Position numbers and translations under genes: made by a program. From NCBI RefSeq assembly GCF_024713945.1, contig NC_134686.1:768001-832000 (forward strand): DNA of 64,000 bases, read 5' to 3'. This DNA comes from Dermatophagoides farinae (taxonomy: Eukaryota > Arthropoda > Arachnida > Sarcoptiformes > Pyroglyphidae). Position 1 is the stretch's first letter; each line of letters starts with the position of its first letter. The notes under the pieces are model-generated. The model did not search any database. It was not told where the DNA came from and was given only the letters and a program-made list of their open reading frames with translations. Positions 3,201 through 64,000 of this stretch are shown piece after piece.

Positions 3201-3686
3201 TTGATGGATCTTATTGTGTATTATTGTATTTGAAAGTTGAAATTCATCAATTTAGGAAATAAAAAACAAACCGAATTGAAATGAGTGAAACAACGAAAAA
3301 AAAAACAGAATCTGACAAACAATATGACAATTTTAAATTATTGCTGCTAAAAATTCTTCATTTTTTTTTGTATTCTGATTTTTGGCCGACTGATGAATAA
3401 ATGAATGTCGACAACAACAACAGCAGAAGAAAAATTTCATTTAAAATTTGAATATTTTTCTGTTTCACACTCTCACGCGGAAGCTTAACTTTTCAACATA
3501 ATAAAAAAAATAATGAAGTTCATCATTCTAGCGCTTGCATTTCAACAACAGACAAGACAAAAAAAAATTCACAAAACTTTAAATGCAAATTAGTTAGTAT
3601 GTGTTTTTATACATAGAGAAAAAGCAAACTACTATATATATCAAACACAAATCTTTATGGATGAAGAATGAATATTTTTTTTTTTG

Positions 3687-3727
3687 TTTTTTTTCGCACA
3701 TCAATTTATTTGATGTGCGAAAAAAAA
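3687..3727. repeat. Perfect hairpin, 18-bp arms and 5-nt loop
   Basis: Arm 3687-3704 (eight T then CGCACATCAA) is the exact reverse complement of 3710-3727, around the loop TTTAT. The 11-bp non-homopolymer core TCGCACATCAA cannot be put down to simple repeats. Function is unknown; it lies in the dunce 3' flank. Confidence 0.9.
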
Positions 3728-13749: not shown

Positions 13750-13827
13750 CTATACAACCAAAAAAAAAGAAGAAAAATGAAAATTCAACTGAAATAACAA
13801 AAAAAAAATCAAATGTGGATCACATAC

Positions 13828-14410
13828 CAATATAATCGATAAAACCGACTTGTGATTTTTCAATAGTTGCATTATTACGATCACACATTGGTGAAATTTC
13901 TAGGCCCATTGAATGTTCTTTATCGCCTTGTTGAAAAAATTCTTCCATCAATAATGAACACCATTTTTGGTATAGTTCCAATTTTTTGGTTGGATTAGAT
14001 AAATCGGCACAATGTAACATATTTTGTAAAACTTGTATACGTTCAGTATAATTGTCTAAAAATAATACACCAGAACCGGCCACTTTTTTTGTTTCCACCA
14101 TTGTTTTCAAATCGGCCAATAGACTCATATGTTTGCTCATATCGGTGGCCAATACCATGTCTATTGTCATTCTACGTAATGTTTGACGCTGTTTTTTGCT
14201 TAAATTTATAAAAATGTCACAATCAGGATCTTGTAGCACTTTAAATGCAACGGCCAATGAATGTGCTTCCAATACAGATTCATCATTATACATTAATGCT
14301 AATTCAGAGCTTGAATTGATTAAAAATTGATTAGTAACACCAGGATGATCAACATCGTGTATGGCAGCGGCAAATAATGCCGTTAATATTTCAAGATCAG
14401 TAAATACAGA
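13828..14410 (-). CDS. dnc: dunce/PDE4 shared exon: main part of the catalytic domain
   Basis: It encodes 194 full codons (residues 455-648) plus the first base of a Val codon. It contains [20 protein letters not shown] followed by DHPG, with metal ligands His472 and Asp473. LHCADLSNP supplies the third acidic ligand, Asp590. EEFFQQGD follows, and then SQVGFIDYI with Gln641, the invariant glutamine that clamps the purine ring. All residues needed for zinc/magnesium binding and cAMP recognition are present, so the enzyme should be active. [20 protein letters not shown] also matches PDE4 closely. The donor is GTATGTG; a 78-bp intron follows. Confidence 0.97.
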
Positions 14411-14501
14411 CTAAATGAGATGTGATAAAATAAAATAAAATAAATATTTTTTTGTTTTCAATAATGAAAAATCATCAAAAATATGTAAAAAAAACACATA
14501 C

Positions 14502-14666
14502 ATCAAGTGCTGGTGATAATAATAACACATGTACAGATTGAGCAACATCAGCTGCATGTATGCTATTATGATATGGTACATCAATATGATAATGATCTTC
14601 CAATGTTAACATTAAACGAATGAAAGTTTGTGATGGTATTTGGAACGTTTTCATTAAATCACGTGA
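14502..14666 (-). CDS. dnc: dunce/PDE4 shared exon: catalytic core with the general-acid His
   Basis: It encodes exactly 55 codons (residues 400-454) in phase 0 at both ends. It reads [15 protein letters not shown], then [20 protein letters not shown] and [16 protein letters not shown]. His432 of YHNSIH corresponds to the general acid and His436 to the first metal-binding His of the PDE superfamily. The family usually reads ERDLLKTF at the start; here a Ser comes first. The acceptor is GACAG and the donor GTATGT; the flanking introns are 84 and 91 bp. Confidence 0.96.
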
Positions 14667-14750
14667 CTGTCCAAAAAAAAAAAAATGGAAAAATTTTTTT
14701 TAATTAATTTCTCAAATGATGATTATATAAAAAAAATTAATAATACATAC

Positions 14751-15202
14751 TCTAAAAATAGTATACATAACAGTAGTCAATGGATGATGATTAGAATATT
14801 CAGACACTTTGAATAGATCGATACCCCATTTATCCATATCGGAAAATATTCTAGATAATTCTTCTTCATTAGCTGCTTCAATACCGAATCTTGGCGTTTT
14901 TGTTAAACTATTTGCATGTGTTAATGTTGATTTACGTACACCAGATATATGTGACATTGTACGTGCTGGAGAATTTTTTCCTGATAATGGTTGTATGGCA
15001 GATGATGATGATGATGGTGGTGGTGATATCTTCATTATATCAGTACTAGTAGTAGTAGTAGTAGTTGCAGCAGCAGCAGCATTATCGGCAGGTGATGCAA
15101 CTGCAGTTGTATTACTAGAAGATCCAGATGAAATGGCCAATGATCCTTGTTTGGAACTTTCTTCCAATTGTAATATTGGTAAATCTAATTCTTCTTGTTT
15201 GT
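14751..15202 (-). CDS. dnc: dunce/PDE4 shared exon: UCR2-catalytic linker and start of the catalytic domain
   Basis: It encodes 150 full codons (residues 250-399). It begins KQEELDLPIL, then a Ser/Ala/Thr-rich insert, then MSHISGVRKSTLTHANSL, the equivalent of the MTQISGVKK block before the catalytic domain. The catalytic domain opens at RFGIEAANEEELSRIFSDMD and continues KWGIDLFKVSEYS. The exon ends MYTIFR in phase 0 at a GTATGT donor. The insert (poly-Ala and poly-Thr) is longer than I recall for vertebrate PDE4 and should be a disordered loop. Phase and splice sites agree with both neighbours. Confidence 0.94.
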
Positions 15203-15287
15203 CTACAAGAATTAATAATACAAAAAAAAAAATTTTTTTAATTAAATCAATTCAAAACATATGGAATCAACCAAGAGACTAACTAAC

Positions 15288-15610
15288 CTAAAAATGTACG
15301 AAAAATATATTCTGAAATTTGACTTCCAGATTTTGTTTCAGAAAAATGACTTAATTCTTTATTTAACATTCGTCTAAATTTACTGGTAGCCATATCACCA
15401 ACAGATCTATGTGATTGTATTGTTTCCAATTGATCCATACACCAATCAAGCTCTTCAAGGGTTTCCACAGCCAATCTAGACATTATATCGTCTATTGGCT
15501 GTTTAGTTGTTGTTGGCTGATTTGTATTAATTTGTTGTTGTTGTTGTTGTTGTGTTTGTTGTTGTTGAATTAATTGTGTATAACTAGGTCGACGTCCAAC
15601 TTCACGTGGA
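15288..15610 (-). CDS. dnc: dunce/PDE4 shared exon: linker and UCR2
   Basis: It encodes 107 full codons (residues 142-248 of the 748-aa form). The exon opens with a linker ([14 protein letters not shown]) and a Gln-rich insertion. From about residue 187 it carries UCR2: [20 protein letters not shown], then [20 protein letters not shown] and LSHFSE, ending [10 protein letters not shown] and a split Asp codon. UCR2 in PDE4 folds over the catalytic pocket and restrains activity. The core is strongly conserved; only the linker is expanded with polar repeats. The acceptor is AACAG and the donor GTTAGT. An 85-bp intron follows. Confidence 0.95.
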
Positions 15611-15682
15611 CTGTTTTTGTATACAGAAAAAAAAATTTTAATAATTAATGAAAGAAAAACAAACGAAAACAAACAGACATAC

Positions 15683-15790
15683 CGATTGGTTGGATATCGA
15701 ACATTTGTAATATGAATATAATTATTACGGACATTACGTAAGCTCGCAAGAATTTGTGCAAATGGTGTGACGATAAGATCTTCAGCATGG
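15683..15790 (-). CDS. dnc: dunce/PDE4 shared exon: second half of UCR1
   Basis: It encodes 35 full codons beginning [20 protein letters not shown] and ending in a split Arg codon CG+T. This matches the invariant [20 protein letters not shown] stretch of PDE4 UCR1 almost residue for residue. It is the first exon common to all six isoforms seen here, at residues 106-140 of the 748-aa form. UCR1 pairs with UCR2 to form the regulatory module that mediates dimerisation and autoinhibition in the family. The acceptor is CATAG and the donor GTATGT; the following intron is only 72 bp. Confidence 0.95.
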
Positions 15791-16051
15791 CTATGAAAAA
15801 AAAAAGATTAAAAAGAATGGAAAAGAATTTTAAAAATTTGAAATTTTTTTTTCAACAAAAAAAAACCAAACATATGCGAGAAAAATTTAAGCCGATTAGC
15901 CGAATTGAATATGCAAATATTGCGCAAAAAATAATAATAATAATGATGATGATGATGATGAAATGTCAAAAGTCAAAATTTTTTTTTGTCGAATGAAAAA
16001 TAAAACCAATTCATGTTCAAACCATCATCATCATCATCATCATGTGCCTAC

Positions 16052-24027: not shown

Positions 24028-24999
24028 AATATATGTGGTTTCCATCCAACAACCCAAGTTTAATATGTGACCACCATTTTTTTCAGTGCTATATATATAA
24101 AAAATTCTATGCATTCTGTTCAAAATATGTAGGGAAAAAAATTCTTTTTATCCTATAGAATCGTTGGCATTGTATTCATATTTCCGATTCCATAGAATGT
24201 TGCTGTTGTTGCTGCTGTTGTTGTTATATTCTACATATATATAGTGAGATTTATTATGCATTTTTTTAAATAGCTAAGAGTGAAAAATGAAAGGAAATAC
24301 AATTGAAGAATGGAGATTTAATTGAATTTTTGTTTTTCACCACATAGATTCTGTATATTCATAATTGAAATAATAATGATGATGATAATGGTAATGAAAT
24401 CTCAGAATATTATTGATACCGACACACAGAATCAAACATTTTTTTTTTGCTTAAAATGACTTATCAAAATTCATTAATCGATATATAACTGTATTTCATA
24501 TACATTAATGAATTTGATATATATAATCTTTGCATCTCTAATTTAATCAACGAGAAAGAGAAACAAAAAAATTTTTGATCAAGTTTTGTTTATTTAGTCG
24601 GTTCATTCTTTTATGATCATCAAACAAACTTATTATTATTATTATACGTTCAATGACGTATATATATTAGTGTTGTTGTTGTTGTTGTAGAATTAATTGT
24701 TGTTGTCAACGAAAAAAAAAACAAAATGGAAAAAAACCGATCTTGACAAGTCATCATAAACGACAAATGTATGAGTCTGTGTGTTTAAATATAGATTAAA
24801 TATGGATTTTTTTTTGTTAAAAAAATGATGAATTTTGATAAATTGGATAAAAATAGAAAAAAAAATCAACACAATGGAAAGAGAGATTTTTTCTGTTTTT
24901 CTGTTTTAATTTTGGTAAATTGAAAACGAAACGACACGCTTTTTGTTGATGATTTTATAATCAACAACAAAAAAAAGTAAAGTTGTTGTCAACACTTAC

Positions 25000-25523
25000 C
25001 AATGATGATGATTATTATTTTTATAATGATGATGATGATGATTATGATGATGATCATGACCGTTGTAATGATGAAAACTATTTCTACGTTCAAATAAATT
25101 AGACATATGTGGATGTTCATATGATGATGATGATGATGTGGAATTTGTTGTTGATGATGATAAACTCATTGATGATGAATATGCACCAGAATCATAAAGA
25201 ATTGGTGAATTATTCTGTTCTTGTTGTCGATGTTGTCGTTGTTGATTTGATTGCAATGGTTTTATTCGATTATTATCATTTTTTATAATTGGTAATGGTA
25301 AACTTTTTCGAAGATTTTCTGGATGAATTGATTTAAATTTTGATCCATAATCACCACCATCATCATCGTTATCATTATCATTATGGATCAGTAATGTTAA
25401 AGACATTCTATTGGAAAAATTGGAATATTCTTGTACATGTGAATATGATGATGATGATGATGATGAATATCCATAGTTTGGTGCTGAACTTGAATAATAA
25501 CCACCAAAAGGAAACATTGCCAT
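25000..25523 (-). CDS. dnc: Alternative first coding exon E of dunce/PDE4, bypasses the UCR1 exon (gives a 818-aa isoform)
   Basis: It encodes 174 residues plus two bases, starting MAMFPFGGYY at 25523 with A at -3 and G at +4, a good start context. It ends at a GTAAGT donor at 24994-24999. The peptide is rich in Tyr/Ser, then Asp/Asn and Gln, and finishes in a His-rich tail. Shortly before the tail is LFERRNSFHHYNGHD, which resembles the RRESFLYRSDSDYD block of UCR1 and keeps an RRxS PKA consensus. Because it lies 3' of the UCR1 exon it must splice straight to 15683-15790. The split codon TG+C gives Cys before HAEDL. It therefore appears to supply its own version of the first half of UCR1. 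Confidence 0.78.
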
Positions 25524-28518
25524 TTTCGGTTCGGTTTGGTTTGTTTTTCTTCAATTTGTCAATTATTATGATTATTATATGATGATAATGATGATGATGA
25601 TAATTAGTGTTGAAATTTGAACTTTTCTCTCTCTCTCTCTCTCTTTCACTCTATAAAAATTCCTTCTAAGTTTGGAATAATAATCATCATCATCATCATA
25701 TAATGATAATCATCGTCGTCATCATTATCATCAATTAAAGAAAAAAAAAAACGAAAATTCTTATGCACGCAAATTTGATATAAAAACCAAAAAATAACAC
25801 ACACACACACATGCAAAAAAAAAACACGAGATATGCAAATAAAAATTATCACTAATTGCTTCCGTTATGCATTTATCGAGTGAAATAAAGATTTAAAGAT
25901 AATTATCTCTCTGTGTGTGTGTGTGCGATTTGTTTGTTTGTTTAAACAGGGCAAAAATCGATTTGAAATATGCAAACACATAATAATGATACGATTGGAT
26001 GATTCGATTTAATAAATCTCACGATGAATTGATCTTGAATAAATTTTTTTTATTGGCTCAAAGTTTACAAAAAAAAAAAACATCATAATAATTGTCAACG
26101 ACAATGGTGACGACATCAATGATGGCAATTTGTACCACACCTTTATTGTTGATGAAAATGTTTACAAGTAAAAAAAAAATGCTTGTTCATTTCAACAATG
26201 AAAATATTAACAACAACAACAACAAATTGATGATAATGGGCGGTAAAAAAAAAATAAATAAACATCACAGACACGAAATTTAGGAGAAAAAACATTCGTT
26301 TGTAACATTTCAACACACGATCTGAAATATTCAATTCAAAATTCAAATATTGATCTCTTTTTAAATACCCGAAAATGAAAAAAAAGCAAATATGATTTGT
26401 CTCATGTTATCATCATCGATCATAAATTAACAAAAAAAAAAAAAAAAGTAGAGACAAATTCAATTCAAGATAATCGATGCTTGTGCTTGTGATGATTGTG
26501 TTTGTATAATAAAAACCATATAACCTAACAGCTCAATTATATGTAAAGTGAGTGATTGAGAAAAAAAAGGCAGCACTTTCGTTTATTTTTTTTTTTTCAT
26601 TCGATATCACAGTGTGATGAGGCTCTCCAAAACAAAAAATATGAATAATGCACACCTACGATACCCCTTAACCAGCACACACACATGTACATATTATGAA
26701 CGGTATTATGTGTGTGTATGTGTGTGTGGGTGGTTGATGCTTACACAATCGTTTTAGCATCATCATCATACACATTGAATACAATTTCTTTTCGCTTTTT
26801 TTTCCATTTTTTTCTAGAATATGAAAATGATACATGGATCTACAATCATATCTACCACCAATACCACCATCAACTAATCAACCAAGATATCATTCATATT
26901 TTATCATCAATTATCGATGATTAGTTAGAATAAACAAAATGATGATGATGATGATGATAGTGATAATCATCATCATCATTTTTGTTGTCTTTTCATTAAT
27001 TCTGGTTAAATATTAATGCGCCTTGTGAATCAAAATTCAAGATTGTTAGCAACAAAGAAAAATCTTTGAAAAACAGAACAGAAAATCTAATCAAGACATG
27101 AAATAATATATAGACAGATTAAACAACAACAAATGAATTGAATCATGTTTTCAGTTCCAAAATCAAAATCCATGAATGAATGAAATCCTGTTTTTTTTGG
27201 ATTTTTCAAATAAAAAGCGTGAGTATCACCCTGTATCATATGCACGCACACACAGGCACGTATTTATATGGAAAGAGAGAGAGATTGTATCTTTAAACGA
27301 GACAAATTGAACAAATTTTTATGCATATGTAAAGTATAATAATGTTTTTTAAAGTCATTGATACCGTATGTGCATCCATCCATTCATTCATTCATTCATT
27401 GATGTTGATTGATTGATTGGTGTTTATCAGATTTTTCTCACTCTTTTACACTTTATTGAAAAGATGCAAGATATTTATCTTTTACTTTTTTTCAATTCGG
27501 CATTTCAATTATTTCATCCATCATCATCAATAATAATCAATCAATCATCAATTCAATGAATGATTATTTCATAAATGATAATGATTTGTGTATGTGTATG
27601 CGAGTGAAAACATGAGATAATTCATTAAAACAAACAATTTGATCATGATGATTGAAAAGTGATTGGAAAAAAACAAACAAAAAAATCAAAATCAAAAGTC
27701 AATCATTTATCAATAAATCGTCTCCACAATTCAATATACAAACATGTTTGATGTCTCTATTTAGATTAGATTAGACGGTTATTGGTGGATAAATATCTGA
27801 TATCTGATTAGTATGATGATTATTTATTCAAATTGAAAATTGAATAAATAAGTTTGAAATTGTAGCTGTAGTACGGTGAATATGTTTGTTTTCTGTACTA
27901 TGATCCCTCTGTGTGTGTGTGTTTGTGTGTTTGTAATTTGGAAATTATAATAATAATCATTTGGATGGATTCAAATGAAATGATAAAAAAAAATATATGT
28001 CCGGATGTGTGGGTAGATAGTGATAGAGACACATACACACACACACACATATACAGGGTGAATGGATCATTGTTATTGTTTGTTTATATGGTAATTTTCC
28101 ATCCATTATAATGATAAAAATACAAAATTTATTTGTCAGTTTGTTTTCATTATTTCCAAAATCGATTATTAAATATTCATGTGTGTATGTTTGTGTGTGA
28201 TTGAACAAATTAATAATAATCAAAACGATCTATATTAATGATTATTATTATTATTCATAACTCTATGGCCATGAAAATTTGCATTTTGGATTCTTGGTAA
28301 ATGCAATTTATTTTTTTGTTTTTATTCATAGTTAATCAGAATTGTTAATAGAGAATGATATTCTTTTTTTAAAAAAATTTTCTTGGAACATGATCGGCCA
28401 TCTAGTGGCCAAGAATCGAAACATAAAAAAGCGCTTGCATTTTTTTTTTTTGCTAATCGACTTTTTTTTAGAGTTCTCGCAACAAAAAATTATGAAAAAA
28501 AATTTGTTCAACACTTAC
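25524..28518. other. dunce intron upstream of first exon E
   Basis: About 3 kb between exon E and the UCR1 exon. It should contain the promoter and leader of exon E near 25524-25900, where there are TC and CA repeats but no clear core promoter. A plus-strand exon-like piece ends at 26924 (see findings) and a sequence perfectly matching the CTCF core lies at 28396-28410. The rest is low-complexity DNA. Confidence 0.6.
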
Positions 28519-30009: not shown

Positions 30010-30473
30010 CAAATGGATCATCTCTATCGATCAAAAGAGAATCAATCGATATGAATAAATAATGAATGATGATCGATAAAAAGCCAGTAAGTCAGTTAGT
30101 CAGTCAGTCAGTCAAACATTCAAAATTGGGTAGCTATACACACTAGAATTGAAAATGAATTCATTTTGAAATGACGCATGTGTATTTTATTTTATTTTAT
30201 TTTTTCAAATCCGATCCACAGAGGTCGCTGGTAAAGCAAGTTTTATTTTATTTTTTTTTGATTTGATTTAAAAATTGAACAAAAAAAAAAAAAAAAAAAA
30301 ATTCAATCAGCGAATCTTTTTCATTTTTTTTATCTGATGTTTCCACATGGTTGATTAATGAATGAATAAATGAATGAAAAATGAGAAAATCAAATCAAAT
30401 TTGGAAATGAAGCAGAACAAAAAACGGAAAAATGAAGGAGACAAAAAAAAATTCGTCGAATGAATAAGCGAAC
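28966..30473. other. dunce intron between first exons D and C
   Basis: About 1.5 kb holding the presumed promoter of exon D. It contains CTA, AAC and TG/CA microsatellites, an ATTTT-type repeat near 30188-30205 and AGAGGTCGC at 30220-30228. No coding signal was seen. Confidence 0.6.
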
Positions 30474-31294
30474 CTTTGTGATGATCGACCCGGATAAAGT
30501 CTTGGACCGATACGTAATGGAATACCTGAAATAGAATTACGTATACTGTATGATGGATATGATGAACGATGTCTACGTGTTATTGGTATGCCAATACTAC
30601 CACCACCACCACCACCGCCGCCACCGGCATAACTACTACCACCACCACAACCATAAATAGAATTTGATGAAGAAATCTGTCCAGATATAGAAGACGAACA
30701 ATGATTCATAATGACAGCTGAAGATGAATGACGATGACGAGAATAATAAAGATTTCTATTTGGTGTAGTATTACCACCACTACGTGATGATATTTTATTG
30801 AAAAATTGTTGTTTTGATTTTGTTGTTGCCGTTGTGTTGGTGGTGGTGGTGGTGTTTGAAGTTGGCCGGGCAACCAATAATGTTCCACTAGATGCATGAC
30901 GAATATGTGGATGGCCAGTATAGCCACCGAAATCAGAAATACAATCTGAATTTAAATCAAATTCAATACTTGATTGATATGGTGATTGTGTATAATTACT
31001 ACTAGTCTGTGTTAATAAACTATTTGTCGAAACGGTAGTTGCATTTGATGGTGATTCACGCATTATAATGAATGGACAAAATGGTTCCGATATAATGGAT
31101 GATTGATCAATTGGATGATATTTATCGCAACAATGATGATGATGATTATTATTATTATTTGGATGATTATTTTGATTATTATCATCATCATCATTATTAT
31201 CCAACATATGATATGGTATATGACGTTGATGTTCATGATGATCACATTGTGAATTTAATGATTTATCATCATCAATTGATGATGTTTGTTGTAG

Positions 31295-31326
<32 letters not shown>

Positions 31327-32110
31327 GATTTTGATTATCACAAGAAATATTAGACATCATTTTGCTCTTATTATTGTTAGATTTGGCTGTCATTGTATGT
31401 ATCGTTGATGTTGTTACAAATTCCGTTGTCGTTGACGTTGTTGTTGTTGATGTAGTCATCGTTGTCGTCATCATAGTCATTTTTCGATCCATAAAATTCT
31501 GTACAGAATTCAAATGTTTATTCATATTGATCATTCCGATGGAATTTGTTATTGAATTAAATAAACGATTTAGGAAAATATTTTCCGATTTTTCCAATGA
31601 TGCTGATGTTGATGATTGTTGTTGTTGTTGTTGTTGTTGTTGTTCATGTTCATCGATGACATGAATTTTGTTTTTATTAGCTATTTTGCTATCGTTTGTA
31701 AAAATTTGTTGATTCTTATTTCGATTTCTATGAAGATGATGGTGATGTGAGTGAGAATGTTGATCAAAAATAAAAGAATCATCTGTTGTCGATGATTCTG
31801 TTATTGATTCATCAATTCTATTGCCGTTTTTGTTTATGTTATCCACATCAACATCAACATCGTCATCGTCATCGTCATCATCATCATCATCAACAACAAC
31901 AACATTAGACATGAATGGCTGTCGTACATTTGTTGTTGTTGTTGTTGGCAAATTATATTGTTGTTGACGAATATATTGCCAGAATGCGCCTAACGTATTC
32001 CAAAATAGCATGGTGATTACAATCATAACGATATATATGGAAAAAAATTTTAAAGAAATGAAAAAAAACAACAACAAAACTTCATCCATTGGATGAACAT
32101 TGAAATTCAT
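30474..32110 (-). CDS. dnc: Alternative first coding exon C of dunce/PDE4, with hydrophobic N-terminus (gives a 1246-aa isoform)
   Basis: It encodes 545 residues plus two bases, from the ATG at 32110. Residues ~11-43 form a nearly uninterrupted hydrophobic stretch (VLLLFFFISLKFFSIYIVMI and on to a Trp-rich end), which reads as a signal anchor or transmembrane helix. After it come long runs of Asp, Gln, Thr, Asn, His and Gly, and a basic Ser-rich end (TRRHRSSYPS, ISGIPLRIGP, GRSSQ). The split codon AG+T gives Ser before FDVDESG. The donor here is GTTCGC, a poor match to GTRAGT, but it gives the correct phase; better-looking nearby donors give the wrong phase. The start codon lacks a purine at -3, so initiation at Met8 is possible and would keep the hydrophobic segment. 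Confidence 0.72.
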
Positions 32111-36977: not shown

Positions 36978-39845
36978 CACACGTTTGATTGCATTCTATT
37001 ATTGAATAGGAAAAAAAAACAGATGAAAATGAAAATACATGAAGCATCCGTCCATTTGGGTTATTTGTGTATTTATTTATTTTTGTTTTCTATTTCATGT
37101 ATATTACAATGAAATTGATTTGAAATCATTTCATTTGATTTCATTTTTTTGTGTATGATAAATAATAATAATAATAATGAAAAATTCTGGTACATGGAAA
37201 AATGTTCATCATAGAATTATTTGCCATTCACAATATGTGTGTGTGTGTTCGTGCCAACCAATTGGATATTGTCAGCAACAGAATCGAACGTTTTTGTTTT
37301 CATTTCCTATTTTGGTATCATTTTGGAATCTAATCTCTTAAAATTAATCTTATTGTTAATTTGATATACAAAAGAGAAAAAAAAAACCAAAACGACCCTA
37401 AGTGATAATCAAATTTTTTTTTCTGTTTGATAATTCCATAGAAATTGTTAATTGTCCATGGATTTTATAATTAGAGCATCATCATCATCATCATCATCAT
37501 CATTATCAATTGCCAGGGCAACCCTTGTTTTACAGAGAAACAAAATTTCATCATCATCATCATCATCAGAAATTTAGATTGCAAAAACGAAATCAAAACA
37601 AACAAACAAACAAAATGCCGAACAAACAATCTATTCCAAAGAATTCCATTTTTATTATAGATTCAAATACACACACAAACACACTAGGAATCTCAATATA
37701 AGAATCATCATTTATTATATTCTCCATTCTCTCATTTGAGTGTTATTGTCAAAAAAAAAGAATGATGCTATTTATTTATGTGAACCAAGAAAAAAACCAA
37801 AAACAAATATGAAAATATCAAAATAGCCATTCACTGTGATTCATCATTGATGGATACGCGTTATTCAAATAAACAAACAGACAAACAAAACGTATTGCCA
37901 GACATGTTGCATTTATTTTCTATTTTTGGTAACAGAATAAAGAATAAAGAATTCATTCAATGAAAAAAAATATGACATTATCATATCGATATTTTAATAA
38001 CAATGAAAACGGAAAGAATTCATATGAATTCTGCACAGAATTTGTGTTTGGTGATGACTCATATTTTCTGAATCATCAGAAAATTGAATTTTTTTAAAAA
38101 AAACAGAAAAGAAAATGCACTCACACAAACACTGACTGACTGACTGACTGATTATTGACACAAGGTGATGATGTTCGTCTTTTTCTTTTCATTTTCGTTT
38201 CTATTTTATTTTTTTTTTCCTGAAGAATCCTTTCAAATGAGACAAACAATCGCCGTTATTGACATTATCGCAACCAAACACAGACACACACACACACACA
38301 CACACACTGAATATTGGCGGAAGCTCAAGAATAAAAGAAAGAAAAGAAAGCAAAAAAAAAATTCTTGACATTATGAAACATTATGGGCACAAATAAAAAA
38401 AAAGAAAAGAGAAATGAATGTTGCAGAATTTTTTTTTTCATCATCATTCGTTGTTGTTTGTTAAAAAAAATTGTCAAATTTCATGAAATTTATTGCAACA
38501 AAATATATGGATAGCGATTCTTTTATTTTCCATTTTTTTTTCGATTCCATTTTAATTTAATTCAAATACAAATGATCAAAGTGTAAATGTCAATATGGCC
38601 CATACACCACACCAAATATTGAATGAAAACGAGAATATTTTTTTTTCTCCATTTTTAGCCATTAAAATTCTTCAGTTCACTGGTTGATTATTAGTAAAAA
38701 TAATTTTTTCATTTGCTCATTATCATCATTGTGAACATGTGACCAAGTAGCAGTAGTAATAAAAAAAATTGCCAACATTTGCAGAAAAAAAATTCTGAAA
38801 AATTTTTCTCACCACCCCCCTCCCACCCCTCATCAATTCCACTTCACTCCACTCGACTTCAGTATAGGAAAAAAAACTTGAAAAACGATTGGAAAAAAGA
38901 AAGAAAGAAAAAAAAACTTTATATTTAGAAAAATTAAGAAAGTTTCCATTCACTTTGTCAACTTGTTTCGTTGGAACTTTTTTTTTCTCGTTGCCTCGCA
39001 AAAAAAAAAAAATTGGGACAAACGATGATCAGAAAAACAAAACAAAAAAAAACAAGCCGTAAAACGCAGCAAAAAAAAGAATTTTTTCGTTCTATTTACA
39101 CAAAAACCAATATTGATGGAATGAATGAATGAATGAATGGTCCAAAAAAAAAAAAACGAAAGAATCATTTTATACAAGCCAAATGATTGAAAAAAAAACT
39201 AATTCCAGAATTTTTTGCTCTCTTTATGCAGAATATATACAGAATACAGAATATAGAATAATAATAATAATGTGAGGCTAATATATATATAAACAAAAAG
39301 GGGATAGATGTGATCGTAAACCGTATTATCATATATGATCAAATGTGATTATATATATTATATACAGATGGAAAACGTATTAACTTTTTCGTTATCTTTT
39401 TTTTATTATTATCATCATCACGATGATCATCATGATCATGATCATCATTAAAGTATTCGAAAACAAATTGAGCAAATAAAAAAAACGATAATGATGATGT
39501 TGGTGAAAAAAAAAAAAATACAAATTCTGGATATTCTATAAACAAACAAACCAAACAACGAAAAAAAAACTATAAACACACAACGGAAATGAAGATTTTG
39601 TAGCTATAGAAATAAAAAATCAATAAATAATTTCGTTAATTTTGCTCGAAGCGTTCGATATATATATCGTGGTGCAAAAGTCAATCAATTTTCTTTTCTT
39701 TTCTTGTTTTTTTTTTTTGATTAAATTAGTACACACATACGCCATCTATGGTTGGATTTTTGAAATACAAATTTTTTTTTTGCAAAATCAAAAAAAAAAA
39801 AAAATTTTATCACACACACACACACTCATAGACACAAGCACTTAC
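32111..39845. other. dunce intron between first exons C and B
   Basis: About 7.7 kb with no recognisable coding exon. The segment just above 32110 should hold the leader of exon C. It contains the longest dinucleotide tract of the window (34231-34308), a TAGGGTTACCAG sequence at 36492-36503 that also occurs in the mobile element at 61.8 kb, and GCCATCT at 39741-39747. Confidence 0.6.
34231..34308. repeat. TG dinucleotide microsatellite, 39 units
   Basis: 78 bp of perfect alternating TG, the longest dinucleotide array in the window, with no interruption. Confidence 0.97.
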
Positions 39846-41065
39846 TCGCAAGAAATACTTGGCAATAATCGACGACCATCAAGACGTTGAAAAAGTAGAC
39901 CACGTGGACGTATTAATGATGATTGTTGATGGCCAGCCATAATATTTGATGATTGTAGCTGTGATGATAAAAAACGGCCATATGATGATGCTGATGCCGT
40001 TGTTGAACGTGTACCAGCAAAACTAATACTACGTGCATACATTCGACGTTGTATTGATGCTGTTGATTGTAGTGGTGATTGATGGTACAGAATATTCTTT
40101 TCATCATCATCATCACCATCATCATCATCACGATCATCATGGATTTTTTCCATTTCATCATCACCATCATTATCAAATTGTTTCATGTCTAAAATTTTTT
40201 GTTTTTCAAGACTTTTTTCCAATGCTTTCACTATGTTTATCGGATCAGATGAATCATCCATATTGATTTTGGTTGTTGTTGTTGTTGTAGTTTTATTTCC
40301 ATTATCCGCATCATCATCATCATCATCATCGGTTTCTTCATTAACCGTATCGAAAAAATTGATACTACCACTATTGGCACTTGAATTTGAATATGTTCGT
40401 CTTATTGTTGTTGTTGTTGATGTCGTTGATGGCGATGTTGGTGATGACATTTTATTTTTATTCAATTTTTTTGTTTTCATTTGATTTTTCAATAATTGTT
40501 GTTGTTGTTTTTGTTGTTGTTGTTGTTGTTGATCATCTTTTTCTTCAAAACTAACAGATTTTTGTTGCTTTATTATCGATTCATTTGTTGTTGTTGTTGT
40601 TGAATGCCACCAATCAACATCGATGGATGATTTTTTTTGCAGCTGCTGTGGTTGATATTTAATTATTGATGAGGTTGTGGTGGTAGAAGATGACAAATTT
40701 TTTGATTTTTCATTTAAATTAGATGATGATGAAACGATATCTGTGTCTGTATTTGTTTCTTGGCAACCAAAATCATCATCATCATTATTATTCTTCATTT
40801 CATCATCTTGATGAATGTAAGTAAAATTTGCATCATCATTATCTCCATTGCTTTTACCACTTTTCTTCTTCTGTTGCTGTGTATGATGATGATAATGTTG
40901 CCAATTTTGTCTATTTAAAATTGACGTTTTAAAAATTTCTTTTTCGTCATCATTATTATCATCATCATCATTGGCCACTTTAATGATTTCTTCTTCATCA
41001 ATTTCTTCGCTGTTGTTGTTGTTGTTGTTGTCGTTATCGTTTCGGTCTTTTCTTCCTTTAATCAT
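39846..41065 (-). CDS. dnc: Alternative first coding exon B of dunce/PDE4 (gives a 1107-aa isoform)
   Basis: It encodes 406 residues plus two bases. The start is the ATG at 41065 (MIKGRKDRND) and the exon ends in a strong GTAAGT donor at 39840-39845. The protein is highly charged and low in complexity: poly-Asn, Asp/Glu clusters, poly-Gln, poly-Thr and Ser runs. Its last ~50 residues are ordinary in composition (RSISFAGTRS, RGLLFQRLDGRR, LLPSISC), which suggests the functional part is near the splice junction. The split codon GA+T gives Asp, joining to FDVDESG of UCR1. No membrane segment is seen. It is unlikely to be a chance ORF: 1.2 kb stays open in an AT-rich genome and it ends in the right phase at a consensus donor. 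Its function beyond being an isoform-specific N-terminus cannot be read from sequence. Confidence 0.8.
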
Positions 41066-44000
41066 TAAATTAGTTTGTGTTTTTTTTTGGCTATTTAATC
41101 ACATTTGGAAAATACGTAAAAAAACCATACGCACACACACACACACACAGAGGATGGATAATTCAATTTTCAATAATGAAAAGTTCTTGTCAATAATAAG
41201 AAAAAGTTCCAGACATTTGAATATGTTTTTCTTTTTTCGTCTATTTAATAATAATAAACAATCGTCCTTGAATGTATTATGGATGTGAAATTGTAATTGA
41301 AATAATCAAATTTATTATCCACCACAGATCATCGGTTGTTGTTGTTGTTGTTGTTGTTGTTATTGATGGTTGTCGATTGTTGTCTGGTAGATCTCCGGTT
41401 CTTTTATTTCTGGTGTATAAATTAAATTGGAGAAAACATGGACACTTGACCATTACACTGGACACTGTACGTGTGTCAAGTGTTTGGTTTTCAGACCGAT
41501 CATAAAACAAAACAAAAAAAAATCCAATTCTCAAGCTTGAATAAATAAAAACAACTTGAAGAAAAAAAAAGAAGAAGAATTGTTTTCAATAAAATAAGAA
41601 TATTCTTGATTCTGTTCGGTATATATATATGTAAAAGTTTGTTGTGGTTTTTTTTTCACTGATTTTTTTTCGTTGATAATGATAATAAAAAAGTTTATCA
41701 ATGACACACGCACCAAACAACAAAATCGATATTTATAGATGTCAAATTCGGTAGTAGCAGTAATTCAATGGAATCCGGGTAATAATCGCGATCATCATCA
41801 TCCTACACACACACACACATACATAGGATCGTGATGGATTTTTCTATGTAATAATGAAACTTTTTAATTCTTTACATTTATTTTGGATTTATCGATTGTT
41901 TGATTGATTGATTGATTGATTTTTAATTGACTTTCAAAATATTTTTTCATTTTTCGTTTTTTTTTCTTGAAAAAAAAATCAATGATAATGATGACAAAAC
42001 AAGAATTGAAATGATTTGACACACACAGACGACAATGACATGGAATTTTTAAAAGTGCACAAAAAAAAAAAAAATTTCACACAACTCAAATTGATTCTTG
42101 GTTTTTTTTTGGTACCAACAGACAAACAAAACACATGAATAAAATTGTAAAGAAAAAAAAGAATTAAACGTGCACTCAGTCAGTTGAGTGAATGAATGAG
42201 TGAGTGAGAAAAAAAAATTCTCAACACTGAACAAAATGAGAATCAAGAAGAATTGAAAGTTCTGTGTGTGTGTGTGTGTGTTTGTGTGTATGTGTGTGTT
42301 TGGGTGATCATCAACACCAAATGTGTCTATTATAATTGTCGCAGTCGTCGTTGTCGTCGTCGTCGTTATTGTTGTTGTCACCACTGTTTCATTATTATGT
42401 ATTGTGTTGTCAACAACTACCATCAACACAGCTAATGCTATAAAGATGATGATGAAGATGAAAACAAAAAAAAACGTCAAGCCAAACAAATGGAATCAAG
42501 ATTCAAGAAAATGAAGAAAATTTTGATCATCACCATATTCATTTTAAATGATAAAATGACATGCAACATCTTTTTTTTTGCATTATTTATTCATCATTGT
42601 TCAGGCAGTTCAAATTCAATTCAATTCAATTACATTCTATTGTTGTTGCCAACAGACAAACGAAAATATGATGAACAACAATCGTGCGATAACACATAAG
42701 TGTGAAAAAAAAACGAAATTCACCATACACACACACACACACACAGAGAGAGAAAGTTTTTTTTTGAATATTCAAATAGTTAAGGTGTAATTCAATGTTT
42801 CAAAAAAAAAATACAAAATAAAACAAATAAAAAATTTTCATTTTAATTATCATTCTTCATTAATGAAAATTGAAAATTGTTAAAATGCACAAATGTACAC
42901 CCATCACACACCCATCACACCCATCACACACACACACGAACACTGAATGGAATTGAATTGAATTGCAGAATTCTGTCTATGTTTGTTTTCATTTCATTTC
43001 ATTTTATTTTATTTCATTTCATTGGAACAATCATTTCATGTTTTGGCGCATGCGCCTGTATACACACACTATTTAAATGATGATGATGATGATAAATATT
43101 GATGGAAGTAAAGATTCGAGAAAATTTTCAAAATTTAAAAAAAACCCAAGAGAGAGAATTCATGTTGATGATGATCAACAACAACAACAACAACAACACC
43201 GATGACAAACACAGAACACAAGAAACATAAACAGGAAAAAAAATTTGAAAATAAACAACAACAACAACAACAAAAACAGCAAAGAATTAACAAACAGATT
43301 CTAAATTGTTGACAATTGTTGTTGTTGTTGTTGACATCTTTCACACACATACACACACACAAACATCAAAAACAATTTTTTTATTTTCTTTAGAATTTCA
43401 TCATCATTTTGATCATTTTTTTAAGAGTTTTATCAGATCCTTAGATCCTTTTGCTGCTGCTGCTGTTTGATTCTTGTTTTTTTTAGCTTTTTATCTGGTT
43501 GGCTTGTTGGTTGTTGTTGTTGGTTGTTGGTTGCTGGTTGTTCATATATGGCAGCCATACATACACACAATATACCATAAGATATACTTATGCGCTGCAT
43601 TTTTGTTGTTGTTGTTGTTGCCTGCACCATATTATCATCATCATCATCATCATATACTTATTTGCTTTTGGGCATAGTTTTAAGAGAAAAGAAATACCAA
43701 AAAAAAAAAATTTCCTACAAACCCGTATTAGCAAAGTAGCAGAGTAGTAGTAAGTAGCCAAACACACACACACACATATAGACTGTTCAATTTCATCCAT
43801 CCATATAATAATACATTATTATAACGGTAAAAAAGTAGGAAATGCAAGCAAAAAATACCGACTATCAATGAGAGAGAGAGAGAGAAATGCAAGCAAAAAA
43901 TACCGACTATCAATGAGAGAGAGAGAGAGAAAAACTGTTATTATTTTTTCATCCCTGAAAATTTGAGAAAAGAAAGAAAAATAGAAGAAAAAAAAAATGA

Positions 44001-45014: not shown

Positions 45015-45023
45015 CATCATAAT

Positions 45024-45254
45024 GGTTGTAGGTCAAAATCCCGAAAACAAAAACCCCGAAAACCGAAACGCCGAAACCAAATGACCGAAAAAAAATTATC
45101 CCGAAAACAAAAACCCCGAAAACAAAAACCCCGAAAAAAAATTATCCCGAAAAAAAATTATCCCGAAAACAAAAACCCCGAAAAAAAATTACCCCGAAAA
45201 CAAAAACCCCGAAAACAAAAACGTAGAAAATGGCTTGTTCCCTTAAACTTTAAA
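45024..45254 (+). repeat. Left terminal inverted repeat with CCCGAAAA minisatellite
   Basis: After a ~55-bp unique end it consists of two alternating units: A (15 bp, CCCGAAAACAAAAAC) and B (16 bp, CCCGAAAAAAAATTAT). Read inward, the order is B A A B B A B A A. It ends with an 11-bp-plus unique stretch containing ATGGCTTGTTCCCTTAAAC. Confidence 0.93.
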
Positions 45255-45369
45255 TGAACGGAGATTAACACTATTACTGTGAGAAATTTCATGTACCGGA
45301 TTCTACGAAAAGAAGTCATTAGATCTAGTTTATTCATCATACAATCACCACAAGTTTTAAATTTTAAAT

Positions 45370-46203
45370 TAATATCTAGATATTCATGATGATATTTTTT
45401 AATTTGTTGTCAATAATCCATAGATTAAATGAAATTTCATTTTTTGTTATTTGGGCCAAATTTTCTTCAAAATTTATCTTAAAACCGCCTTCAATCAATT
45501 TTCGAACAGATATCAAATTTGAACTGAAACCTCCATAGGCCACATCTTTCAATTTGGTTTTGGTTCAATAACAACATTACCAATTTTTCTCTGATGTAAT
45601 TGTATTACCATTAGCCAATTCAAATTCAATCTGTTTATCTTCTTGATCCATAAGTAAATTTTTATCAATCGTTGTATGAGAAGTACATCCAGAATCAAGT
45701 ATCCAGATATCTGATAATTTTTCAGCACATTTCAACAACAACGATTTTGCAGCTTTCTTCTCTTTTTTGTTATTTGATTTCGTGAAAATGATGAGCTAGA
45801 AGAAGATTTATCATTAGATGATGTTGATGGAGAAACTTCTGTTTTATTGGAATCAATTTTTCGTTTCATCCAACATCCTTCAACTTTATGTCCAATTTTA
45901 TGGCAAAATGGGCATTTTATATTATTTTTAAACTTTTTCTTAAGATTGAGATTTGGCCTTTTCATCATATACAATGAATTCATTCATGATGTTGTTCATT
46001 GTACCATTCTGGTTCATCATAATTCGATCAGCCAGTTGTTCAAATTTTGAATTTGATCGTAACATGCTCATAATAATCACGCAACGATGTTTATCAGTGT
46101 ATTTACACGATTCTGATTCAATCGATTCAAATTTGACAATAACTGTTTCTAGCCTTGTTCTCAAAGAACTACTTTTATATGAACATGTTGTAGTGAGAAT
46201 CAA
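45370..46203 (-). pseudogene. Broken Ty1/copia-type Gag-protease remnant
   Basis: Read on the minus strand from 46203 down, a Gag-like segment (LRTRLETVIVKFESIESESC, SNSKFEQLADRIMMNQNG) leads in another frame to a CCHC zinc knuckle at about 45860-45915: CPFCHKIGHKVEGCW, spaced C-X2-C-X4-H-X4-C. A third frame below 45730 carries the protease signature WILDSGCTSHTT, then ELANGNTITS. After another shift comes LKDVAYGGFSSNLISVRKLI, the usual copia block after the protease. Integrase and reverse transcriptase are absent. At least three frame changes make it non-functional. It ends about 115 bp inside the left inverted repeat. Confidence 0.75.
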
Positions 46204-46389
46204 ACGAATGCAAAATGAACAATATTTAATAATAAATAAATGTTAATCGTAGCTGAATAACGCTACTCTTATAAATATTACACAAACATAATTGTTAAGT
46301 AATTACATTACTACAACAGAACATTGGCTGGCTTCAGTAAAATCAGCATTTCGAAGTTGTGGTAAATAGATCAACAGATTTCAAACTAT

Positions 46390-46740
46390 GTTGTAAATTT
46401 TGAACCGGAATTTTAGTTTGTCTTTGCTCAATATCCATAATCGATGTGGTTATGATAATGTTCGGTTGCTAGCTTATATTGTGGACATTCTTCACAGAAA
46501 ACTGAATAATTGACATTTAATTCAGAACTAGACTAATTTTTCCTGTGTTGATTCCACCACAAACAATAAGCACAACTAAATAATTGACTAGATGAAGTGT
46601 ATGTTCTTGATTCATGATTACCATGGCATTTTGAGCAGACTAGAGCATTTTTACATTTTCCAGTTTATGGTCAAAACGTAGGCATTTGTGACATTGTCCT
46701 ACAGAAATATTGTTCTTTGACGTGCAATATTTAATTGGGT
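46390..46740 (-). pseudogene. Degenerate CCHC-knuckle Gag/ORF1 fragment, LINE (Jockey-like) type
   Basis: On the minus strand the sequence reads VGQCHKCLRFDHKLEN. After a frameshift it continues CKNALVCSKCHGNHES, then FSCAYCLWWNQHRK and VFCEECPQYKLATEHYHNHI. Repeated Cys-X2-Cys-X4-His spacings ending in CPxYK are typical of the ORF1 nucleocapsid of Jockey/I-type non-LTR retrotransposons. Stops and frameshifts disrupt it. The class is an inference from motif order. Confidence 0.5.
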
Positions 46741-47152
46741 ACCATTTTTTCGGTCAGTAAAATGAGGGGTTGGTCAGTAATTTTTTAAAAGTTTTGGTCA
46801 GTTGAAAACGATCGGTAAATATATCAATTTTGGTCAGTTTTTCATGTGAATAATCAGTTAATTTAATAAATTGTCCGTTATCAAACTTGAGGTGAAACAT
46901 CCAAAATTACAAATTTCGCTCCAACACGATCTTTTTTGAGAAGGCAAATTGATGTCAATTTATCGTCAATACGATTCATTGACCGAATCAATTAGGATTC
47001 GAATTATATAATTTATATTACATTATATTATTATATTATTCATTTATATTATATAATTATCACCATTTGTTCGTTTAAAATTGGAAATTTAAATCCAAAT
47101 TTCACTTATTTATCTTTGATTCTATTCAGTTTGGTCGAATAATTCTTTAAGC
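46741..47152. other. Unassigned interior of the composite element
   Basis: AT-rich and not built from triplet repeats, with GGTCAGT recurring four times in 46754-46838 and a run of TTATAT words near 47010-47060. No protein was recognised. Confidence 0.5.
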
Positions 47153-47383
47153 TTTAAAGTTTAAGGGAACAAGCCATTTTCTACGTTTTTGTTTTCGGGG
47201 TTTTTGTTTTCGGGATAATTTTTTTTCGGGATAATTTTTTTTCGGGGTTTTTGTTTTCGGGGTTTTTGTTTTCGGGATAATTTTTTTTCGGGATAATTTT
47301 TTTTCGGGGTTTTTGTTTTCGGTCATTTGGTTTCGGTGTTTCGGTTTTCGGGGTTTTTGTTTTCGGGATTTTGACCTACAACC
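47153..47383 (-). repeat. Right terminal inverted repeat with CCCGAAAA minisatellite
   Basis: It is the inverted partner of the left repeat, the same length, with the same outer and inner unique ends. Read inward, the unit order is A B B A A B B A A. It has the same totals (five A, four B) as the left repeat but in a different order. Confidence 0.93.
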
Positions 47384-47392
47384 CATCATAAT

Positions 47393-62255: not shown

Positions 62256-62910
62256 ATAGCTCCCAGGAATAAACATGATAAAATAAACTGAATGTGTATT
62301 GGACCAAACTCAAAAAACATGACCATCAAACAGCCAAAGTTGATTGAGGATTATTTGAGTAATATGAAATATTTTGTTTAGTAAAATATTTCTAATTACC
62401 ATTTATCAATAAAATCGAGGAAGTAGTATTTTTTGCTATTCACTAATTCGATTGATTTAACCAGTCATTCACCAATTCATACATTTTATTGTATTGTAGA
62501 CCCAAGAGAAAAAAATTTCTTGAATATAAAAGGTCAATTTCGAAAATTTATTTATCATTGGACTCATTTTCAAAATTAAAAATCTTGGTCGACCAAGACA
62601 TTTTAGCCTCGGTGATGAATTATTAAATACAGGGAATCATTTCATCATCAAGATACAAGATCACAAACAATGGACATGCCATGTTTGTAAAAAAAAAATC
62701 ACCGTATCAATGGATCTTGTACAATAAAAGTTTCTGCTTAAATGATTTTAAATAATATCATAGTAAATTATAAAATAAATACACTACAAATTGATGTATT
62801 GTTAATTTGTAAAATGATTTCGAAGAGAAAAACCGAATATATCAATTGTATTTGATAAAATAACAATAATATCCAATATATCCAATATATGCAATTTTTG
62901 TTGTCTGTGT

Positions 62911-62933
62911 GCCCATCATCCTATATATAGGAT
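62911..62933. repeat. 16-bp palindrome, copy 3, with extended left-end sequence near the right end
   Basis: GCCCATC plus the palindrome repeats 23 bp of the left end (61237-61259) in the same orientation, about 130 bp from the right end of the element. Confidence 0.9.
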
Positions 62934-63069
62934 GGAAGTTCAAAGTTCAATTTCTCGAAATATAAAAATTTTAAAAATAAATAAATGTCATATTTATTAC
63001 TTGTAGCCATCAAATTTTTATAATTGATAACTTTTTTTCAAAAAAAAAATTTGGGCATTAATGGGTTAA

Positions 63070-63361
63070 TCGATTCTTATTTCGAATGATTATATGATTG
63101 AATGATGACGATGCCAAAAAGGCAATTGAAATCATCATTAACTACCATTACTATTACTATTTACAAGGAAACTAAATTGATAATACGATCAACCAAGAGA
63201 GACATGAAAGTTTTTTGAACATTGACATTTACCGTTTGTAGAGTTTGATATTTTTTTTTTTTACCATTTTCAAGTCACATACATACAGAATTCTAATGAA
63301 GAATAATGGTATTTTTTTTCTTTCAATTCTTTGCTGCCAATGTAATATCAACCAAACTTAC
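63070..63361. other. dunce intron start, downstream of first exon A
   Basis: Short ordinary intron sequence between the piggyBac-like element and the donor of exon A. Nothing else was seen. Confidence 0.7.
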
Positions 63362-63936
63362 CCACAAATCCATGAATGACGACGTCTTGGTGGACCACCA
63401 TTAGCTGTTGTTGGTACTGATAATAATATTGGTGCACCACCACCACCACCACCACCACTACTACCAGAATTATTGGTAGCTAATAAATGATTACGAGATT
63501 TAATCATCATTGAACGATTATTTATCGATGATGATGATTGTGGTTGTAGTTGTGTTGTTGTTGTTGTTGTTGTCGGTGATGCCAGATTTTTATTATTATT
63601 ATTATCAAAACAATCATCATTTATTAATACTGTTGTAGTGGGTGGCGATGTTGTCAAAGTAGACGATAATGAAGATGTCATTGTAATATTCGGTATCATA
63701 ATAGTTCTATCATGATTATGATAAACATTGAATGAAGAATTTTTAGCCATATTTTTCATTAATATTTTACGATTTGGTGATGGTGAACGATGGTTATGAT
63801 TATGATTTTGATTTGTATGATGATATGATGATGATGATAAAGTTGTTGTTGTTGTTGTTGTTGGGGTGGTGGTGGTGGTGGTTGTAATTATCGTTTGTTG
63901 TTGTTGTTGTTGTTGTTGTGTTTCAATTTGATCCAT
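63362..63936 (-). CDS. dnc: Alternative first coding exon A of dunce/PDE4 (gives a 892-aa isoform)
   Basis: It encodes 191 residues plus two bases of a split codon, starting at the ATG at 63936-63934 and ending at a GTAAGT donor just below 63362. The peptide opens MDQIET, then runs through poly-Gln, poly-Thr and Ser-rich stretches and a glycine run. It ends in RRRHSWIC, followed by a split Gly codon. The Arg/His-rich lead-in to a Cys just before FDV resembles the long PDE4 forms, so this looks like the classical long-form N-terminus. It should splice to the UCR1 exon about 34.7 kb downstream, giving SWICG-FDVDESG. The low-complexity part is poorly conserved and the start codon is only the first available ATG. 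An upstream non-coding exon or promoter would lie past the window edge. Confidence 0.82.
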
Positions 63937-64000
63937 TTGATGATAATGATTGGTAGTAGATGTTAGTGGATGGCAAAAATGTTTTTTATTACCATCATGA
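63937..64000 (-). other. 5' leader of first exon A, cut by the window edge
   Basis: 64 bp upstream of the exon A ATG. There is no splice acceptor I trust, so the transcript start lies further up or beyond the window. Confidence 0.5.

Follow-up and report, generated by a model that had tools for sequence, protein, structure and literature searches.

The window, by which we mean the whole stretch of 64,000 nucleotides that was analysed, carries a PDE4 (dunce-type) gene on the minus strand and, well upstream of it, a mobile element of about 2.4 kb. The gene is recognised by PF00233 at 13823–14410 (E 3.8e-76) and PF18100 at 15286–15807 (E 4.3e-45), the region 13823–15807 containing the catalytic and UCR domains. 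The original prediction had placed the element in a dunce intron; the gene is indeed there, but some 29 kb separate these exons from the element upstream of them, the one long frame scanned beyond it gave no Pfam match, and no proof of an intronic position was obtained. Minus-strand frames at 24999–25550, 30398–32110, 39845–41098 and 63361–63999, the last being the long frame beyond the element, gave no Pfam match at E ≤ 0.01. The seven proteins scanned against Pfam were two PDE4 exons, one from L076 (a copia relative on contig C3), and four without a match.

The mobile unit occupies 45024–47383; its inverted ends are 231 nt long, and the 9-bp target duplication beside it is perfect. Its features, including those nested within it, are as follows:

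45015..45023, no strand: target-site duplication, left copy, CATCATAAT, identical to the right copy at 9/9 bp
45024..45254, plus strand: left terminal inverted repeat; opens with the 17-nt motif GGTTGTAGGTCAAAATC, followed by 13 CCGAAA units and a short inner unique stretch
45250..45253, no strand: TTAA site that carries a nested 708-bp inverted-repeat element in copy L030, placed by alignment
45320..46185, minus strand: copia-like gag/protease/pre-integrase fragment, decayed; element positions 297–1162; recognised by a Pol_BBD match and likeness to L076
46181..46185, no strand: left copy of the 5-bp GAACA duplication around the nested LTR
46186..46318, minus strand: nested solo LTR, 133 bp, TGTTGTAGT...ACTACAACA; GAACA on both sides, site empty in sister copies
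46319..46323, no strand: right copy of the 5-bp GAACA duplication around the nested LTR
46320..46362, plus strand: short inverted copia gag piece, 84% identical to L076 over 43 columns
46428..46732, resumed at 46882–46950, minus strand: zinc-knuckle open-frame fragment, putatively retroelement ORF1-like; collinear with C3:2429387–2429802
46727..46885, no strand: dispersed repeat of about 150 bp interrupting the zinc-knuckle fragment; matches C3:6846290, C10:1933684, C4:1054597 and C5:228562
47153..47383, minus strand: right terminal inverted repeat; its 13 units follow an order partly unlike that of the left arm
47384..47392, no strand: target-site duplication, right copy, CATCATAAT

The two arms (45024–45254 and 47153–47383, 231 nt each) are 85% complementary in an ungapped alignment. 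Their units, 13 per arm, are mostly 15–16 bp long, and Tandem Repeats Finder gives a period of 15 bp with about 12.3 copies per arm. The end sequence of this foldback family reads GGTTGTAGGTCAAAA.

Eleven two-ended copies in the genome

The left arm was used as query against the element's own assembly (62.4 Mb, 22 contigs) and returned 27 matches: 22 pair up into 11 two-ended elements of 2,052–3,136 bp, and the remaining five are a single-ended piece (L038), a diverged piece (L039), and three short arm fragments (L040–L042). An exact 9-bp target duplication flanks ten of the eleven two-ended elements and an exact 8-bp duplication, AAAAAAAT, flanks the other (L029), and GGTTGTAGG is present at 22/22 element ends. 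As controls, 44 of 438,900 comparisons at the remaining flank offsets gave an exact 9-mer match, and none of the 110 pairings of flanks from two separate elements did so; when the 1-kb flanks were compared between elements, a single 30-bp match was obtained at E ≤ 1e-5. The genome contains 21 exact occurrences of the 15-nt end motif, one in L038 and the others at 20 of the 22 element ends; exact and one-mismatch matches to this motif were used, those with two mismatches being discarded because their total of 170 does not exceed the 214 of the reversed-pattern control.

Ends, duplications and the eleven copies thus agree that the ends and everything between them form one mobile unit, inserted at 11 places with unlike flanks. 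The window element is a real mobile unit, as the original prediction had read it from the 231-bp inverted repeats and the 9-bp direct repeat outside them. That prediction had proposed a genome search with the repeat for further copies and their duplications, and had named the lack of a consistent 9-bp duplication as an outcome that would speak against it; the counts above went the other way. The family's low copy number and the repetitive nature of its arms might suggest an inverted segmental duplication or an assembly artefact in place of a transposon, but the eleven sites combine unlike flanks with exact duplications and identical end nucleotides, and we give this reading virtually no credence.

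Divergence was calculated from an alignment of nine copies (L034 and L036 left out), gap columns and 25-column blocks with more than 25% mismatch being dropped. Six copies, namely the window copy, L028, L030, L032, L033 and L035, differ from one another by 0.13–0.74%, and therefore moved recently; these six near-identical copies arose recently. L029 and L031 differ from the six by 0.68–1.62%, and L037 differs from the other eight aligned copies by 2.4–3.2%. Separately, L041 contains at positions 3238–3285 (C1:5935737–5935784) a 48-bp arm piece, 100% identical, which lies within a GA microsatellite, has neither ends nor neighbours, and looks like templated filler DNA.

Superfamily and mobilising enzyme

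Several structural features bear on the classification of the family. Its target duplications (9 bp in 10/11, 8 bp in 1/11) fall in the 8–10-bp range of MULEs, and its inverted ends (231 nt in the window copy) exceed the 100 bp of that group. The family's long inverted ends, assembled from tandem repeats, are those typical of foldback elements, and the 17-nt motif followed by 13 units corresponds to the short terminal motif and 9–15-bp subterminal tandem repeats of the Phantom/Muta type. The 9-bp duplication and the end length also fit Rehavkus. The TTAA duplication of piggyBac ends is absent, the family's duplications being 8–9 bp long and of varied sequence, and no MULE-type DDE transposase was found in the family. 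The ends, the duplications and the set of copies give good support to the Mutator-like or foldback nature that had been predicted.

The prediction had also stated that the interior holds no transposase, and this agrees with our searches: the PF10551 (MULE) profile gave no match in the 11 elements among the best candidates scored, and the proteins of the two MULE-like relics on contig C3 described next gave no tblastn match to the 11 elements at E ≤ 1. Across the genome, PF10551 gave three weak matches among the best candidates scored, with none above the cut-off. A FLYWCH+MULE relic lies at C3:1392964–1397227 (L077, L073), in two direct copies 98% alike and about 3.4 kb apart; taken as protein, its FLYWCH domain scores above cut-off and its MULE domain reaches 27.7 bits against a cut-off of 27.6. 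A MULE-like gene at C3:5144858 stays below cut-off. A FLYWCH (or SWIM) MULE transposase is a feature of the Phantom/Muta group (PMC6446971). The PF10551 match at C10:1047727 contains two stops and overlaps a 524-aa open frame in antisense, and looks like a chance match. For the PF20700 “Mutator” profile, a single match exceeds the cut-off, in a 134-aa frame with one stop at C6:720843. No exact or one-mismatch end motif occurs within 10 kb of C3:1392964–1397227, C3:5144858 or C6:720843, none lies near C10:1047727 either, and no partner with the family's ends appeared in the stretches covered when L077 and L073 were scanned for family ends and inverted repeats, and L073 and L074 for inverted repeats. 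The full-length copy with a MULE transposase that the prediction had proposed to look for was not found in these searches. Because a Mutator transposase was detected in none of the copies and the Mutator-type genes of the assembly that were found did not show these ends, the superfamily is assigned from structure, and the family would be Mutator-like by structure only.

A first close parallel in end anatomy comes from mosquitoes. Excerpts of PMC5225508 describe Muta1 of Aedes aegypti as having a 10-bp terminal motif, nine 12-bp repeats and duplications of 8 or 9 bp, and Muta5 as having an 8-bp motif with nine 15-bp repeats; 10 of the 12 long-ended Aedes Muta families there carry repeats of 9–15 bp, and the derivatives share mainly their ends, with heterogeneous interiors. 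Our family resembles Muta1 and Muta5 (Phantom group), as excerpted, in its ends of more than 100 bp composed of a motif and tandem repeats, in its 8/9-bp duplications, and in its varied interiors. The likeness concerns end anatomy, and the family differs in that no autonomous copy or transposase was found and in that its cargo consists mainly of pieces of mobile elements.

A second parallel is the Mutator/Foldback family Tm1 of Meloidogyne (root-knot nematodes), for which parts of PMC3169594 report composite ends with a variable number of approximately 14-bp repeats, 9-bp duplications, and a Phantom-like transposase in some copies; M. incognita has transposase-bearing copies. Tm1, so described, shares with our family the composite repeat ends, the 9-bp duplications, and a nested element within a copy; its terminal motifs, however, are CGGTTAA and CCTACCC, whereas GGTTGTAGG stands at both ends here. 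Finally, the foldback element Tetris of Drosophila virilis, with repeats of about 220 bp in the portion of PMC4079207 used, is comparable in its long, internally repeated inverted ends, apparent non-autonomy, and modular, rearranged copies, although the repeat length differs and the mobilising superfamily may differ.

We believe that a relationship to Muta/Phantom is the better reading. Membership of another superfamily with 8–9-bp duplications, or of Rehavkus, an outgroup of Mutator, is in our estimation rather improbable, even though no transposase is linked to the family ends, the PF20700 match at C6:720843 exceeds its cut-off, and Rehavkus, as outlined in sections of PMC6446971, has a PHD-finger transposase, 9-bp duplications, inverted ends of 26–400 bp, and minisatellites. 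Against it, repeat-bearing ends with 8/9-bp duplications characterise most Aedes Muta families (PMC5225508, same excerpts), and the genome also holds a FLYWCH-MULE relic of Muta type. The element behaves like a non-autonomous Muta/Phantom foldback element, and is a good new example of a kind known from mosquitoes and nematodes; in kind, such a foldback element is ordinary. For mites and Mutator elements, no title among the literature matches listed describes such a family, and the main text of a paper on house dust mite small RNAs (PMC5805368), in the form available, does not contain the words Mutator, MULE, piggyBac or copia. Transduplication in a C. elegans element is described in PMC2572040.

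Origin of the cargo

The clearest part of the cargo is the LTR, which is present in 7 of the 9 copies retaining the region, with GAACA on both sides in six of these seven. Its site is empty in L031 (CATATGAACATTGGCT) and L037 (TATATGAACATTGGCT), and L034 and L036 do not have the region. Since GAACA is duplicated around it and two sister copies show the site without it, the LTR is a nested insertion that was later carried along, and part of the cargo came by ordinary nested insertion. L029 has the same left LTR junction, leading into a 318-bp LTR and then a purine tract, TCTCCCCCCC, a polypurine tract when read on the opposite strand; a full LTR element therefore most likely inserted and then shrank to a solo LTR, the spread of the loaded element following that reduction. 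The copies thus form a series, from the empty site (L031, L037) through the LTR with purine tract (L029) to the solo LTR and the six close copies, which shows a non-autonomous foldback element filling with other elements while still mobile. We considered whether the LTR belongs to the copia-like fragment; this is unsupported, the genomic LTR matches (the best 40 of 59) not lying near L076. Relatives of the LTR are located at C3:755557 and C6:4737106.

Additional nested elements are found in sister copies. The insert of L030, 708 bp long and 85% self-complementary along its whole length, is bounded by two copies of TTAA, and a related insert occurs in L036, about 10 bp or less from the equivalent TTAA place. 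Inside the L036 insert, TTAA-CCC leads into sequence with DDE_Tnp_1_7 matches (E 7.6e-26, 1.4e-13 and 3.6e-13), giving three levels of nesting. In L037, a TTAA-CCC junction within the copia part is likewise followed by a DDE_Tnp_1_7 piece (E 5.1e-10). TTAA junctions are therefore seen at both ends in L030, at one end in L037, and at one end of the insert-within-insert of L036; together with the LTR, four inserts in the family have diagnostic ends, two of them (LTR, L030) at both ends and two (L037, L036) at one.

The DDE_Tnp_1_7 matches within L036 and L037 might be taken for the family's own, piggyBac-like transposase. These pieces, however, lie behind TTAA-CCC junctions, are truncated and scattered over several frames, and were found in 2 of 11 copies, those of L036 in an insert that L030 has without them. 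piggyBac elements duplicate TTAA, not 9 bp. On the junctions, the truncation and the copy count we reject this enzyme as that of the family, its chance of being right appearing very slight. The related inserts of L030 and L036 occupy one place in copies that are otherwise distant (arms 91–95% alike), the nearest relatives of L030 being without the insert; independent insertion, transfer by recombination and precise excision are all possible. Elsewhere in the window, 62312–63066 resembles the piggyBac-like part of L036 at 78% and constitutes a further piggyBac-type relic.

The interior had been predicted to hold Ty1/copia Gag-protease and CCHC ORF1 remnants, with differing results for the two. 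The copia part stands: PF22936 (Pol_BBD) matches at E 5.8e-6 with 27 bits, exactly the cut-off, and the fragment is collinear with L076, at about 70% nucleotide identity over 812 columns and 80% over 59. L076 itself is an open 920-aa frame at C3:6854300–6857600, with SH3_retrovirus, rve and Pol_BBD above their cut-offs and gag_pre-integrs below. No LTR of the fragment's own was seen at either end. A longer version in L037 includes integrase sequence absent from the window copy (84% over 295 bp; PF00665, rve, E 2.1e-4, its 21.9 bits lying below the cut-off of 32.6), and because L037 retains this sequence the window-type fragment looks trimmed by internal deletion. At C7:1202308–1202500, three pieces of the element's copia part, 96–100% identical, abut one another with the intervening stretches missing.

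The zinc-knuckle reading is plausible, the fragment's relative at C3:2429569 lying within a 398-aa open frame and its Pfam scan giving no match above cut-off. C3:2429387–2429802 has about 40 bp at the place corresponding to the dispersed repeat of about 150 bp, which suggests that the repeat inserted into the fragment; a deletion at C3 would look alike. No function was found for the cargo, which we read as a passive passenger.

Taking these observations together, we think it probable that this is a low-copy, non-autonomous cut-and-paste family with foldback ends, the cargo of which is mostly debris of nested insertions. A Mutator-like (Muta/Phantom-type) transposase would most likely act in trans by binding the repeated end units. 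An LTR retrotransposon would have inserted into an ancestral copy and been reduced to a solo LTR, after which the LTR-loaded element would have multiplied. The older copia-like and zinc-knuckle pieces would for the most part be remains of nested insertions that internal deletions have shortened, some pieces perhaps having been added by template switching in gap repair, and all of this cargo would have been carried passively.

The original prediction had likened the element to the Pack-MULEs of plants, in which host-gene fragments are captured between Mutator-type ends. Mutator-type ends around carried foreign sequence are common to both, but the cargo here is transposon debris, partly nested: what can be identified in the window copy consists of mobile elements or dispersed repeats, and no host-gene fragment was identified there. 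As an account of retroelement capture, the analogy is supported in part: it is not the best reading of the nested LTR, with its GAACA duplications and empty sites, nor of the TTAA inserts; for the copia and zinc-knuckle pieces it is neither shown nor excluded. In the form that remains, the ends would have copied these two pieces by gap repair with template switching, and the LTR alone would have nested later. The copia fragment begins and ends within coding sequence, lacks LTRs of its own and has the inverted 43-bp gag piece after it, an arrangement that also fits templated repair and to that extent counts against debris of nested insertions. Furthermore, the excerpts of PMC5225508 report pieces of host genes in Muta1 derivatives, about 20% of which align with host genes. 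On the other hand, the copia relative compared is 69–84% identical and is not a direct donor, the retroelement pieces have dispersed relatives, making them also the likeliest nested insertions, and four inserts of the family bear diagnostic ends. We accordingly consider capture of these pieces unlikely, though well worth keeping in mind, and favour nested insertion for most of the cargo. Foreign fragments between Mutator-type ends should be read with caution, as not all are captured; four inserts here bear the marks of nested insertion.

One copy, L034, is a better candidate for capture than the window copy. Its first 425 bp (window orientation) are 99.8% identical to the window, its far end is diverged (74.5% over 522 columns), and its interior is different. 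Locus positions 3132–4139 of L034 are a direct match to the copy's own right flank at 5903–6851 (C4:3104902–3105850 overall), with 90% identity across 1,017 columns; the flank match begins 427 bp past the element end. The first part of this match is interrupted by gaps; across the tight block (3351–4139 against 6060–6851, about 790 bp), 775 bases align with 4 mismatches, and 20 columns are gaps. No short duplication was seen around the block, in element or flank, which leads us to reject a jumped repeat with its own duplication; such near-exact flank DNA also speaks for capture and is not readily explained by nested insertion.

A 43-aa reading frame from the block occurs genome-wide at these two places alone (E ≤ 0.1), and no gene was identified in the flank-derived DNA. 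The block is not simply single-copy host DNA, since parts of it have diverged relatives at C3:6846188, C10:1933683, C4:1054533 and C5:228555 (74–82% over about 240 bp) and at C5:4786874 (77% over 145 bp). The sequences point to recent local copying between element interior and flank. Either direction is possible; copying from flank to element appears slightly likelier, if weakly so, because the dispersed repeat in the element has 4 extra bases absent from the flank and from the other copies. L034 may, quite tentatively, represent a very recent capture beside its donor, in which about 0.8 kb would have been copied from about 0.6 kb past the element's own end, probably by gap repair primed from a repeat shared by element and flank, with the 9-bp duplication kept. 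Were this so, such elements would gain cargo in two ways, through nested insertion and through copies made of adjacent DNA, and donor and copy would be visible side by side at one locus. L034 lends itself to a test of the capture model, with the putative donor next to the copy.
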